Positions 1,951 to 10,143 of a DNA stretch of 64,000 nucleotides are shown one piece after another. How positions within the stretch are numbered: the first letter of the stretch is position 1; every line of letters begins with the position of its first letter. The notes beneath the pieces are model-generated. The model saw only the letters and a list, made by a program, of their open reading frames with translations. It was not told the origin of the DNA and made no database searches. The DNA comes from an uncultured Gammaproteobacteria bacterium (GTDB taxonomy: Bacteria; Pseudomonadota; Gammaproteobacteria; Enterobacterales; Psychrobiaceae). The position numbers and the translations under genes were made by a program. The stretch is taken from contig CAKZQF010000112.1 in the NCBI GenBank assembly GCA_937139475.1, forward strand, positions 1-64,000, written 5' to 3'.

Positions 1951-2691
1951 CTATTTTGATTTATTTCTATCGCTTAAGGGAAGCCATTCATCTAAACTAG
2001 AACTTTGTACACTTCCGTATTTACACCCCTTAGCAGGCGATGCATTAATAATATTTTCAATTAAACCAGTTTCCTTTTCATCGATTCCCACTATTTCAAT
2101 AACATATTTTCTTACCTGTGCTTTAGTTGGAGTCTTCATAGTTTTAGGTAAGTTACGCCAGCACGCTTTAAATACGCTGTACCCATAGTAAAGGCTGTCT
2201 GGTGTATCTTCGTTGCAAAAATCAGCACCGCTGATTTCTTTGATTTTATAATCGTCGATTTTGGATAATTTAAGACTTTCCTCTAGATCAAGTAAGTTTG
2301 CTTTATCTTTTTCACCCTTTACGTAAAGCCATCTAGTCGCACTGATTATTGTTATGATGGTTTCTTCTAGTATTGGCATCCGAATGTTACTGCCGTCTAA
2401 TGCTGTATATTTGGGCTCTAGTAACTCGATAAGTGTCGTTTGTGTTGTTTCAGCAGGATTAGCTAGGCGTTGATAGGCTATCGAGATTTGCATGAGCAGA
2501 GCATCTTTGATATTCATTGCCTCTCGCACTTTGTCTTTTAGCGAAATCTTATTTTCAGGTTTCGAATCATGTTCTTCTGCAAAACGCCTCCAAAGAACTG
2601 GAATTTTTGTATGTTCTTCGTTTAAACCCATTGCAACTAGCGCTATCTCCTCAGCAGTAAGGCCGCTTTTATACTTTGTATCTATTTTCAT
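1951..2691 (-). CDS. Unknown 246-residue island protein, third gene of the integrase operon
   Basis: I do not recognise this protein. It looks soluble and mostly helical, with no signal peptide or membrane segment. Visible features are an N-terminal helix (LTAEEIALVAMGL), a basic stretch SLKDKVREAMNIKDAL near residue 50, a Trp-containing segment ATRWLYVKGEKDKANLL near residues 117-133 and an aromatic patch SLYYGYSVFKACWRNLP near residues 166-182. AGGA lies eight bases before the ATG. The gene starts 12 bases after the stop of the small recombinase-tail gene, which itself overlaps the integrase, so all three should be one transcript. Genes beside the integrase of P4-like islands are often cargo, including defence genes; such a role here is only inference from position. 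Confidence 0.7.
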   Translation of the reverse strand: MKIDTKYKSGLTAEEIALVAMGLNEEHTKIPVLWRRFAEEHDSKPENKISLKDKVREAMNIKDALLMQISIAYQRLANPAETTQTTLIELLEPKYTALDGSNIRMPILEETIITIISATRWLYVKGEKDKANLLDLEESLKLSKIDDYKIKEISGADFCNEDTPDSLYYGYSVFKACWRNLPKTMKTPTKAQVRKYVIEIVGIDEKETGLIENIINASPAKGCKYGSVQSSSLDEWLPLSDRNKSK

Positions 2692-2703
2692 ATTAAATTT
2701 CCT

Positions 2704-3015
2704 TTAGGTTATAGCCCCAATAGTTGAGGCTATCCTATGTGAGCATTCGCTAACGTAAGCCCCCCACCATTCAATTATTTTTTTACGCTGATCAAAGTAT
2801 GTAGAATAGTTATAAGATTGACTCACCGCACTACCCACTTTATGTGCCAGTAAACACTCTGAAACGTCATAGGCAAAGCCCTGTTCGCTTAATGTTGTCT
2901 GGCTACCGACATTGAAATAGTGCTGTATAGACGCGATACAAGAGCAAAGTTCAAATAAAGGGGAATTATCATCTCTGCTTTCATCTACAAATACCAAGTA
3001 ATAGCTAAATTCCAT
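2704..3015 (-). CDS. Small protein resembling the C-terminal tail of a P4-type integrase
   Basis: A 103-residue ORF. Residues from about 37 onward align with the end of the neighbouring integrase: both have LxEQGF, LAH, a Tyr-Asn pair (the position of the nucleophilic tyrosine), Tyr-Phe, Arg-Lys and Trp-Trp, roughly 21 of 50 positions identical by eye. The first 36 residues show no match, and the upstream catalytic Arg and His-x-x-Arg motifs are absent, so it cannot be a recombinase by itself. It has its own AAGGA six bases before the ATG, which overlaps the integrase stop. It may be the remnant of an older integrase or a retained small protein; the divergence argues against a recent duplication. 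Confidence 0.55.
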   Translation of the reverse strand: MEFSYYLVFVDESRDDNSPLFELCSCIASIQHYFNVGSQTTLSEQGFAYDVSECLLAHKVGSAVSQSYNYSTYFDQRKKIIEWWGAYVSECSHRIASTIGAIT

Positions 3016-4258
3016 TGATAATCCTTAATGCTTTGCCTTTACCGCCAGTGGCTATCGGTATGTCACGTTCGGCAGCTTGAATAAAATCAGACCACCAGCA
3101 CATCATTATTTTTCTGCGCGCAAAATATTCAGCACGATTATAAGCGCGTCTTACCTCGTTGTTATCAACATGGGCTAATGCTGACTCAATAACATCAGCA
3201 TCAAACCCCTGCTCATTTAATGCGGTACTGGCGATTGACCTCATGCCATGTGAAACCAAACGGTTTTTAAAGCCCATGCGTTTTATTGCACGATTAGCTG
3301 TTTGAGAGTTGCAAGGTTCACTTGGTTTTCTATCACTTGGGAACACATGCTCTCGGTGTGCGCTTAAAGGCTTCATGCGCTCAAGAATTGCTATTGCTTG
3401 ATCGGTCAATGGAATAACGTGCTGCCGTTTTTTCTTCATACGTTCTGGCGGTATAGTCCAAGTTCTTTCTTCTAAGTCGATTTCAGCCCATAACGTTCCT
3501 GATGCTTCATAAGGTCTAACCATTGTGTGAAGTTGCCACTCAATCAAGCATCGGGTAGTTAACTTAATGCTGGCGAAAGAAATGGCTTTCATAAACTCGG
3601 GCAATTCTTCGGGTTTAATGGTCAACATGTTTGTTGCTTTGGGGGGTTCAAATGCTGCTCTGATGCCAGCTAATGGGTTATGATGAGTTAGCCCTGTATT
3701 AACAGCATAGGTCATTACGCCGTTTAAATACCCTATCAACTTACTTGTTGTTTCTAACGTGCCTCGGGCAGCTAACGGCTTAATAGCAGCTATCACCTCT
3801 GGTGCTAAAAGCTTGTCTATTGCTCGATGTCCCAACGTTGGAAATAAGTGGTTTTCAAACGTTCGCCAAATGCTGGTAGCAGTGCTCTCTGCAATCTTGG
3901 TCTTTTTTATTTCAAACCAATCAAGGGTTACATTTCTTAAGGTATGACTAGCAGCAAGCGCCTCTTGTACAAGTTTGTCATCTCGTGACTCTTTGGGATC
4001 TTGCCCTTGGGTTAGCATTTCTTTGGATTGAGCGCGGCATTTTCTGGCGTCTGCTAAAGATAATGTTGGGTATTGCCCCAAGCTTAAGTTCTTGCGCTTT
4101 TTAGTTACGGGGTGATAGTAGTTGAATAACCATAATTTAGAACCCTTTGGCTTAACTCTCAGTATTAAACCGTCACCATCAGATAGGACATACTCCTTAT
4201 CTTTAGGTTTGGCGTTCTTAACCTCTGTATTGGTCAATGGTTTAGTGATTCTAGGCAT
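3005..4258 (-). CDS. P4-family tyrosine recombinase (island integrase)
   Basis: A 417-residue integrase with an N-terminal DUF4102-type arm-binding domain (SDGDGLILRVKPKGSKLW, then LGQYPTLSLADAR), a central core-binding domain, and the C-terminal catalytic domain with Arg in MVRPYEA, Lys near KKRQHVIPLT, His-x-x-Arg in SHGMRS, His in LAHV and Tyr in AYNR. It catalyses site-specific insertion and excision of the island. The start at 4258 (MPRITKPL) is chosen over the upstream in-frame ATG at 4348 because GAAGGGA precedes it and the family begins there. It faces away from the 3' end of tRNA-Leu 180 bases upstream, the usual arrangement for tRNA-targeted islands. Its stop overlaps the next small gene. 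Confidence 0.93.
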   Translation of the reverse strand: MPRITKPLTNTEVKNAKPKDKEYVLSDGDGLILRVKPKGSKLWLFNYYHPVTKKRKNLSLGQYPTLSLADARKCRAQSKEMLTQGQDPKESRDDKLVQEALAASHTLRNVTLDWFEIKKTKIAESTATSIWRTFENHLFPTLGHRAIDKLLAPEVIAAIKPLAARGTLETTSKLIGYLNGVMTYAVNTGLTHHNPLAGIRAAFEPPKATNMLTIKPEELPEFMKAISFASIKLTTRCLIEWQLHTMVRPYEASGTLWAEIDLEERTWTIPPERMKKKRQHVIPLTDQAIAILERMKPLSAHREHVFPSDRKPSEPCNSQTANRAIKRMGFKNRLVSHGMRSIASTALNEQGFDADVIESALAHVDNNEVRRAYNRAEYFARRKIMMCWWSDFIQAAERDIPIATGGKGKALRIINGI

Positions 4259-4437: not shown

Positions 4438-4522
4438 TGGTGCGGATGGGGGGACTTGAACCCCCACGCCCTAAAGCACTACCCCCTCAAGGTAGCGTGT
4501 CTACCAATTCCACCACATCCGC
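4438..4522 (-). tRNA. leuU: tRNA-Leu(GAG) with encoded CCA
   Basis: The minus strand reads GCGGATG at the 5' end and CATCCGC-A-CCA at the 3' end, with a long variable arm of class II type, D-arm GGTGGAATTGGTAGACACG, anticodon stem CTACC/GGTAG around the loop TTGAGGG (anticodon GAG) and T-arm loop GTTCAAG. Gene order secG-tRNA-Leu matches enterobacterial leuU. The island integrase lies on the 3' side, so the 3' part of this gene is the probable attachment core (attR or attL); no second copy of that part occurs in 1-4430. Confidence 0.96.
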
Positions 4523-7167: not shown

Positions 7168-7989
7168 TTACAGTGATGCTTTCAATACGGCTAAAACGTC
7201 AGCCGTTGGTTTAACATCATGTACTCTTATTATATTTGCGCCTTGTTGCGCACATAATAGCGCACCAGCAAGGCTAGATGCTAGACGTTGATCAACCTTT
7301 GCCCCTAATAAGTGCTCAAACATGCTTTTTCTGGACAATCCTGCTAATAGAGGCAAGCCAAATTGTTCGAAGCGTTTAAAATGCTTAATCAAAGAAAAGT
7401 TGTGCTCCATCGTTTTACCAAACCCAAATCCGGGATCAACAATAATCTGGTTATACTCAATGCCTGCAGCGACGCAATGATTAATGCGATGTTCGAAAAA
7501 ATCTAATACATCTTCTATCACGTCTAAATATTGCGGTGCATCTTGCATTGTTTTAGGCTGACCTTGCATATGCATCAAACAAACCGGCACCTTGGCGTCC
7601 ACAGCAGCATGTAGTGCACCAGGTTGTTGTAATGCACGAACATCATTAATTAAGTTAGCACCTGCATTCACCGCCTCTGTCATCACGACAGCTTTGCTCG
7701 TATCGATGGACAACCAGCAATCATGATGCTGGCGTATCTTTTCAATCACAGGTATCACTCTTTCAAGCTCTTCCTCTGCGCTAACTAGTGGCGCACCAGG
7801 GCGCGTAGATTCGCCACCAATGTCGATAATGCTCGCACCATCAATTAGCATGCTATCGACTTGTTCCAGGGCTTTATCGAGTTGATTAAAGCGGCCGCCA
7901 TCAGAGAATGAATCAGGGGTTAGGTTTAAAATCCCCATAATTTGCGGCTGCGTAAGATCTAATACTTTTTCTTTATGTTGTAATTTCAT
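7168..7989 (-). CDS. folP: Dihydropteroate synthase
   Basis: A 273-residue TIM-barrel enzyme that joins 6-hydroxymethyl-dihydropterin diphosphate and p-aminobenzoate in folate synthesis; the sulfonamide target. Seen: the first signature IMGILNLTPDSFSDGG near residue 18, the second IDIGGESTRPGA near residue 60, ISIDTSK-type loop (LSIDTSKA), VDPGFGFGKT near residue 187 and GLSRKS near residue 217. It lies between ftsH and glmM on the same strand; a 190-base gap with a tandem repeat and a terminator separates it from ftsH, so it probably has its own promoter. Confidence 0.97.
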   Translation of the reverse strand: MKLQHKEKVLDLTQPQIMGILNLTPDSFSDGGRFNQLDKALEQVDSMLIDGASIIDIGGESTRPGAPLVSAEEELERVIPVIEKIRQHHDCWLSIDTSKAVVMTEAVNAGANLINDVRALQQPGALHAAVDAKVPVCLMHMQGQPKTMQDAPQYLDVIEDVLDFFEHRINHCVAAGIEYNQIIVDPGFGFGKTMEHNFSLIKHFKRFEQFGLPLLAGLSRKSMFEHLLGAKVDQRLASSLAGALLCAQQGANIIRVHDVKPTADVLAVLKASL

Positions 7990-8021
7990 GGTTATTTTTT
8001 CGAATTATTATCAGTATGCAA

Positions 8022-8137
8022 TTCATCCTGAACATCGCCGCGCTTTGGCTTCCATGCCACTGCGGCATACCGTTCATCCTGAACATCGCCGCGCTTTGGC
8101 TTCCATGCCACTGCGGCATACCGTTCATCCTGAACAT
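8022..8137. repeat. 51-base tandem repeat, about 2.3 copies
   Basis: The unit begins TTCATCCTGAACATCGCC at 8022, 8073 and 8124; the first two copies are complete and essentially identical, the third stops after 14 bases. Each unit contains two small dyads, GTTCA-TCC-TGAAC and ATGCC-ACTGC-GGCAT. It lies in the ftsH-folP gap directly behind the ftsH terminator and is more GC-rich than its surroundings. It looks like an intergenic dispersed repeat that has duplicated in tandem. Confidence 0.85.
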
Positions 8138-8164
8138 AAAAAAGCCCCGAATACTCGGGGCTTT
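8138..8164 (-). terminator. Terminator of ftsH
   Basis: On the minus strand GCCCCGA-GTAT-TCGGGGC is followed by six T. It begins 18 bases after the ftsH stop. Confidence 0.9.
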
Positions 8165-8181
8165 ATAAATACTAGCTAAGA

Positions 8182-10143
8182 TTATGAGGCAGGTGTATCA
8201 GTCGAAGGGTCGTTAGCATCCACTTTGGTATCTACCTTTGGCTCTTCTTTCACCTCTGATTTTTCAGCTGGAGCACTTGGCTTATCGCCATCATCACTTG
8301 CTGAATCATCGTTAGTCCAATCCGCAGGTGGACGTGGTTCTTTACGCTCCATCAAGTCATCAATTTGCTTCGCATCAATGGTTTCATACTTCATCAATGC
8401 ATCTTTCATAGCATGTAAAACATCCATGTTGTCATTGATGATGGTATAAGCACGTTGATAGTTACGGTCAACAAAATCACGGATTTCAGTGTCGATTGCT
8501 TGTGTCGTATCTTCAGACATTTGCTTGTTCTTACCAACACTACGGCCTAGGAAAACTTCACCCTCTTCTTCTGCATAAAGTAGTGGCCCCATTTTTTCAG
8601 ATAGGCCCCACTGGGTAACCATCTTACGTGCAATTTCTGTTGCGCGTTCGATATCGTTTGATGCGCCAGTGCTTACTTTATTGGCACCGTAAATCACTTC
8701 TTCTGCAATACGGCCACCGTAAAGACTGGAAATCATACTTTCTAAATGTTCTTTCGAATGGCTAACACGGTCTTGCTCAGGCAAGTACATGGTGACACCC
8801 AGTGCGCGACCACGAGGAATAATACTTACTTTATAAACCGGATCGTGTTCTGGTACGAGACGACCAACAATCGCATGGCCGGCTTCATGGTAAGCGGTCA
8901 TTTCTTTTTCTGACTCAGACATCACCATTGATTTACGCTCGGCGCCCATCATGATTTTGTCTTTCGCTTTTTCAAACTCTTCCATACTAACAGTACGCTT
9001 TTGACCACGTGCTGCAAATAAAGCCGCTTCGTTAACAAGGTTAGCTAAATCAGCACCTGAGAAGCCTGGTGTACCACGTGCAATAAGGCTTGCTTCTACA
9101 CCTTCGCCTAGAGGTACTTTACGCATATGAACTTTTAAGATCTGCTCACGGCCGCGAATATCAGGTAAACCAACGGTTACTTGACGGTCAAAACGACCAG
9201 GTCGTAATAGTGCTGGATCTAACACGTCTGGACGGTTAGTCGCCGCAATAACGATAATACCTTCATTACCTTCAAAGCCATCCATTTCAACCAGCATTTG
9301 GTTTAACGTCTGTTCGCGCTCATCGTTACCGCCACCAAGGCCTGCGCCACGCTGGCGACCTACAGCATCGATTTCATCGATAAAGATAATACATGGTGCA
9401 GATTTTTTCGCTTGCTCGAACATATCACGAACACGTGATGCACCAACACCAACAAACATTTCAACAAAGTCAGAACCTGAGATGGTAAAGAATGGAACTT
9501 TTGCTTCACCAGCAATCGCTTTGGCAATTAGGGTTTTACCTGTTCCTGGAGGACCAACAAGTAACACACCAGTAGGAATGCGACCACCAAGTTTTTGGAA
9601 TTTAGTTGGCTCACGCAAGTAATCTACAAGCTCAGCCACTTCCTCTTTCGCTTCATCACAACCGGCAACATCTTTAAAGGTTGTATTGATTTTATCTTCG
9701 CCCATTAGCTTAGCTTTTGACTTACCGAACGACATCGCGCCCTTGCCGCCGCCGCCTTGCATTTGGCGCATAAAGAAGATCCAAACACCAATGAGAAGAA
9801 TCATTGGGAACCAAGAGATAAAGATAGAAGTCAGCATGCTAGATTCTTCAGGCGCTTGCCCCTCAACACGCACACCTTTAGTGATCAGTTGGTTGATTAA
9901 ATCTTTGTCATACATTGGTATAATGGTAGAGAATTGTGTGCCATCACGACGTTTACCGCTAATGATTTTACTCGACTCGTCAACGCTAATTTCGTCGATA
10001 CTACCGCGCTCAACTTCCTTTACAAACGATGTGTAGTCCAATTTATTTGCGTTGCTACTATCTGGGCTAAAGCCCTGAAAAACTGACATTAATACCACTG
10101 CTATTACGAGCCACAGTATTAGGTTCTTAGCCATATCACTCAA
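8182..10143 (-). CDS. ftsH: ATP-dependent zinc metalloprotease FtsH
   Basis: A 653-residue inner-membrane AAA+ protease that degrades misfolded membrane proteins and short-lived regulators. Seen: two membrane helices (about residues 5-22 and 105-125) around a periplasmic domain, Walker A GPPGTGKT, Walker [10 protein letters not shown], second region of homology [20 protein letters not shown], and the zinc site HEAGH near residue 418. The tail is acidic and disordered. The start is taken as TTG at 10143 because AGAGG lies eight bases before it; the in-frame ATG at 10134 is the alternative. Some 178 bases separate it from rlmE upstream. Confidence 0.97.

Follow-up and report, generated by a model that had tools for sequence, protein, structure and literature searches.

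Protein X, a new family in the integrase-to-alpA slot of PICMI-like, tRNA-inserted satellites and a candidate recombination accessory protein

The Vibrio PICMI satellites, which a virulent helper phage induces and packages, offer the closest described comparison for the locus analysed here. Their backbone has the gene order int-iolg-alpA-up1-prim, in which the iolg/icg gene lies between int and alpA and is overlapping or contiguous with int, and the occupants of this position belong to 13 unrelated families with 35 subfamilies in all (Barcia-Cruz et al. 2024, PMC10803314). In PICMI115, the only such island that has been tested experimentally, helper-induced excision was lost when any one of int, iolg and alpA was deleted, and without iolg transfer fell below detection (PMC10803314). 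In the model put forward by those authors, int and iolg have constitutive expression and AlpA, once induced, makes the excision complex complete; the paper leaves open how the three proteins work jointly (PMC10803314). Complementation of the iolg deletion used int plus iolg (PMC10803314), so an effect on int itself may, in our view, contribute. A second point of reference is the P4-like satellites, whose int-psu locus is a defence hotspot (Rousset et al. 2022, PMC9122126).

The window (the whole 64,000-nucleotide stretch of DNA studied here) begins at a contig end, so that the island it carries is truncated within its replication gene. A tRNA-Leu(GAG) gene identified by ARAGORN at 4438–4522 on the minus strand is the presumed attachment site, with the island at its 3′ end; no second att copy was found for this island, and the contig break may account for this. 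Reading away from the tRNA gene, and all on the minus strand, are a 417-aa tyrosine integrase (3005–4258), a chimeric 103-aa “tail ORF” (2704–3015), the 246-aa protein that we call X (1951–2691), an AlpA-family regulator/excisionase of 84 aa counted from its conserved ATG (1265–1519; Pfam PF05930, E = 1.7e-7; the ORF reaches 1567 upstream of that ATG), a 94-aa backbone gene to which no function is assigned (796–1080), a 102-aa zinc-ribbon-like backbone gene (411–719) and the first 91 residues of a RepB/primase-like replication protein (3–275). The last four are 88%, 92%, 64% and 93% identical, respectively, to their counterparts in a second island of the same genome, here called C15 (L004; the replication protein is at L004:9418–10461). 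The product of 411–719 has a CxxC zinc ribbon, is weakly Lar-like (Lar_restr_allev, E = 0.0016, below the cut-off) and is kept in the C15 island. Outside the island, at 7973–8179 in the window, there is a short near-exact direct repeat with the unit MFRMNGMPQWHGSQSAA between folP and ftsH.

The integrase belongs to the PRK09692 (P4-type) family, with the Pfam domains Arm-DNA-bind_3, Phage_int_M and Phage_integrase and a score of 495 bits against NCBIfam NF007246 (cut-off 434). It runs from 4258 to 3005, the ATG of the tail ORF at 3015 overlaps its last 11 nt, the tail ORF stops at 2704–2706, and the ATG of X follows at 2691 after a 12-nt gap; the Shine-Dalgarno-like sequences AAGGGA, AAGGA and AAAGGA lie upstream of the starts of the integrase, the tail ORF and X, respectively. 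This confirms the tight array of three minus-strand ORFs, with its overlap, its 12-base gap and its ribosome binding sites, that a first-pass annotation of this DNA had described. The same annotation spoke of a P4-like island, and this holds only for the integrase, whereas the remainder looks like a small AlpA/primase satellite. No psu was seen in the part covered here, and the P4 capsid genes psu, delta and sid were not seen on looking over the ORFs of the C15 island, the window island being truncated.

To judge from its alignments, the tail ORF is the C-terminal relic of a previous integrase that has since been replaced, and does not represent a separate small gene family. Its residues 38–103 are 71% identical (47/66) to residues 342–408 of the C15 integrase and, in contrast, the ORF is 34% identical (24/71) to the integrase that it adjoins; the first 37 residues are unmatched. 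Of the integrase it retains the LAH and SYN boxes, whereas HxxR and the whole region before that motif are missing, and so it cannot be a recombinase by itself. The C15 island still has its integrase directly in front of the X homologue, and the simplest reading is that the window island formerly had a C15-type integrase directly before X, most of which was then replaced by a different integrase. Such replacement seems to recur, since the short PHROG integrase C-terminal families phrog_24775, 14880 and 37801 match the tail ORF and full integrases alike, and L019 has an intact integrase with a 116-aa C-terminal piece of another integrase starting 10 nt after it (9225–9575). The possibility that residues 1–37 are the start of a donor slot gene was also considered, and gave no convincing match. 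Because the small ORF is an old integrase’s C-terminus, it does not count as evidence for a designed three-gene operon, and the proposal that it is a partner gene in one is set aside. Among the genes behind the C15 island (L004:12283–19161) are fragments of two additional phage-type integrases, which suggests that this region has been used for insertion more than once.

Against Pfam, PHROGs, NCBIfam and PADLOC, X had chance-level matches only, and a profile search of PDB sequences gave a single weak and implausible match, in agreement with the original observation that X matches no known family. Three homologues were found: L004:7065–7817 in the C15 island, which is 43% identical over its full length and occupies the same position behind the integrase; L008:1751–2503 in a second genome (G207), about 30% identical; and L012:9337–10554 on an IMG/VR contig, a 405-aa protein reached only through its integrase, in which the N-terminal domain of X occurs twice in tandem (profile matches at about 7–141 and 138–334). 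All four family members found directly follow an integrase and precede alpA. The suggested translational closeness of X to the integrase is supported; in C15 and G207 the X homologue begins 1 nt past the integrase stop. Where the site could be seen, the islands with X lie at three different tRNA genes, tRNA-Leu(GAG) in the window, tRNA-Pro(GGG) for C15 and tRNA-Thr(GGT) for G207. A profile search located X in 2 of the 395 genomes of the order sample, and a rerun on the same genomes with a four-member profile added chance-level matches only. A set of 277 Vibrionaceae species genomes (recognised as that family through its Vibrio fortis record) yielded no X, and neither X nor its alignments matched anything among plasmids, phages, genome contigs and viral contigs. 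A likeness by eye between X and the proteins in the same position in L014 and L051 was not borne out by BLASTP, and the corresponding L012 protein likewise gave nothing significant against those two. By these sequence comparisons X is a new and rare protein family, with two related X-bearing islands (window and C15) in one genome.

The X reading frame is open over 246–250 codons in three diverged copies (30–43% identity). For the window and C15 pair its dN/dS is about 0.5 (bootstrap 5–95%, 0.35–0.71), compared with 0.2 for the integrase tail and 0.1 for AlpA at similar dS, so X evolves faster than either; dS is near 1 and thus close to saturation, and these ratios are rough. The full-length 43% identical homologue at the same position, together with this dN/dS, indicates that X is a real coding gene, and its rate pattern is more like that of an arms-race or weakly constrained gene. 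The family is acidic (pI 4.8–5.9), a point against its being a simple DNA-binding excisionase; with Pfam, PHROG and NCBIfam, neither a helix-turn-helix nor any other DNA-binding family was detected in X, and no enzymatic motif is apparent among its conserved residues. X has an N-terminal alpha/beta domain (about residues 1–135) and a C-terminal helical region. A full-length AlphaFold model built with four alignment rows was poor (pLDDT 44.6) and was kept out of the fold search. The structural comparison proposed in the first-pass annotation could be run with a model of the N-domain (pLDDT 73, pTM 0.73) and gave nothing significant in Foldseek and a best Z of 2.2 in VIA, a result that does not show a new fold; with no convincing structural relative, the fold gives no mechanism.

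The arrangement around X resembles that of PICMIs in that a single gene of unassigned family lies between int and alpA and overlaps or abuts the int stop. X is contiguous with int at +1 nt in C15 and G207, and in the window it begins 12 nt after the relic integrase tail. The C15 backbone, int-X-alpA-(small genes)-Rep-DUF5906 helicase, matches the PICMI order and has the PICMI combination of int, alpA and a DUF3987/DUF5906 primase (PF19263, E = 2e-19); in the window island int and alpA are present and the replication gene is incomplete, since the contig ends within it. Unlike PICMIs, which lie downstream of fis and occur at most once per genome, these islands lie at tRNA genes and two related ones share the present genome; the host is also outside the Vibrionaceae group, in whose 277 genomes no X was found. 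Since they depart from PICMIs in the fis location and in the one-per-genome observation, we call these islands PICMI-like and not PICMIs. X is likened to the iolg of PICMI115 by position, gene order and coupling, not by sequence or structure.

How regular is this position? Searching the 395 genomes with an AlpA profile gave relatives in 34 of them, and we inspected 32 regions between int and alpA. A related integrase lay upstream of alpA, on the same strand and within 1.7 kb, in 20 islands, and 19 of these (all except L123) had a single co-directional gene of 178–333 aa between the two; the other surveyed regions had different integrase types, wide gaps or no integrase. The slot gene started no further than +12 nt from the integrase stop in 12 of the 19 cases and within 100 nt in 18, and all-against-all BLASTP divided the 19 into 14 unrelated families; these counts are descriptive, because starts were picked mechanically and the islands are related to one another. 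Six further islands (C15, G207, L012, L014, L027 and L030) have the same arrangement. The int-to-alpA position is thus a conserved slot and a regular part of AlpA-type satellites, shared here by 14 unrelated families much as 13 families share the PICMI iolg/icg position. With individual scans of all but five singleton or unnamed slot proteins (L113, L116–L118 and relatives), the sole occupant known to Pfam is DUF6387 (PF19924; in L027, L030 and L136), which uses the same slot as X, has no detectable sequence relation to it, and is listed beside AlpA in published island tables for ICEKp258.2 and a Serratia island. PADLOC gave no convincing match among the slot proteins scanned and no match for that of L012. 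A five-member unnamed slot family (L121, L125, L128, L133 and L116; 201–284 aa, 21–48% identity by BLASTP) is directly coupled to the integrase and suits deep modelling better than X.

A helper role in integration/excision is the most likely one for X in our analysis, ahead of a role as defence cargo. Its position, gene order and coupling correspond to those of PICMI iolg, and by these features we consider it somewhat more probable than not that X, coupled to its integrase, is an accessory protein of recombination in a PICMI-like satellite inserted at a tRNA gene. As the integrase-contiguous (iolg/icg slot) gene, X would be translated together with the integrase and would act within the recombination complex, where X, integrase and inducible AlpA together would permit excision of the island upon helper phage infection. 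Its acidity and the lack of a recognisable DNA-binding domain lead us to infer that X contacts integrase or AlpA protein-to-protein and not DNA directly. The proposed role in excision is one that X would share with excisionases and RDFs such as AlpA/TorI and Xis; unlike these, X is large (246 aa) and acidic and has no excisionase family match, and AlpA is already present in the island for the excisionase part. Three possible functions had been put forward for X, and the excision cofactor is the best supported of them, as Vibrio PICMIs require the gene in this position for their excision; a defence role is weaker. Several observations run counter to the accessory protein reading. The integrase that precedes X in the window today is not its original one, an unusual situation for a dedicated partner; X is also fast-evolving and acidic, with an N-domain model that resembles no known fold, and it was not seen in the 277 Vibrionaceae genomes. 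Having survived the replacement of its integrase, X may be able to cooperate with different integrases, or the present pairing may be a mismatch. With its acidity, comparatively high dN/dS and persistence through that exchange, X may still have a role in immunity or regulation.

An immunity or defence effector beside the integrase, directed against phages or competing satellites, would fit the faster evolution of X relative to its neighbours at similar dS, and P4 satellites have a defence hotspot flanking the integrase (int-psu; PMC9122126); their integrase is of a related family (PRK09692), and the gene concerned likewise adjoins it. In some islands, similar integrases are also followed by what by eye we would name a UvrD-like helicase (L009:9530, 582 aa) or an OLD-like ATPase (L021:9497 onwards, 608 aa). 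We nonetheless regard this explanation as unlikely. X has no PADLOC match and the other slot proteins no convincing one, its conserved residues show no apparent enzymatic motif, and the known defence genes of PICMIs sit elsewhere, between prim and fis (PMC10803314). Nearly all of the islands, moreover, have one same-strand gene coupled to int ahead of alpA, unlike the variable multi-gene cargo of a hotspot such as int-psu. The suggestion that X is part of variable defence cargo beside a P4 integrase is not supported by what was found, a regular slot with many unrelated families in which no known defence genes were recognised.

Could X instead be an island regulator, controlling int/alpA expression or superinfection and incompatibility from outside the recombination complex? 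It adjoins alpA and is translated with int, its fast divergence fits element-specific recognition, and between the two islands of this genome X has diverged (43% identity) where AlpA is nearly identical (88%). The acidity of X and the lack of a detected helix-turn-helix or other DNA-binding family argue the other way, as does the fact that loss of iolg in PICMI115 blocks excision itself (PMC10803314), and this role appears decidedly unlikely. We think it very improbable that X is a weakly constrained passenger, with the slot reflecting co-inheritance of the integrase and the first gene and no common function. Fourteen unrelated families in 19 slots, a dN/dS of about 0.5 and retention of X after the integrase swap are what such a history could leave, but a frame of 246–250 codons stays open in three diverged copies, dN/dS is clearly below 1 in the bootstrapped pair, tight coupling to int recurs across slot families, and the sole tested slot gene, the iolg of PICMI115, is required for excision (PMC10803314).

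For the accessory protein reading a wider form can be stated, which we advance tentatively and consider doubtful: the satellite integrases of this clade may be two-component recombinases, nearly all of them translated along with a dedicated, fast-evolving partner; these partners would come from many unrelated families, X included, and would set the direction or the helper-phage control of excision by protein contact, as an accessory class distinct from AlpA/Xis. The kind of slot is already known and appears to be widespread beyond Vibrio; what is new here is the X protein family. Islands from many bacterial families other than Vibrionaceae have the slot occupied, with at least 14 unrelated protein families among the occupants, and the slot looks like a general but overlooked component of AlpA-type satellites. 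The relic integrase tail records how such islands swap integrases, and one genome holds two natural variants, the original int-X pair in C15 and the swapped integrase in the window, which makes partner specificity directly testable.
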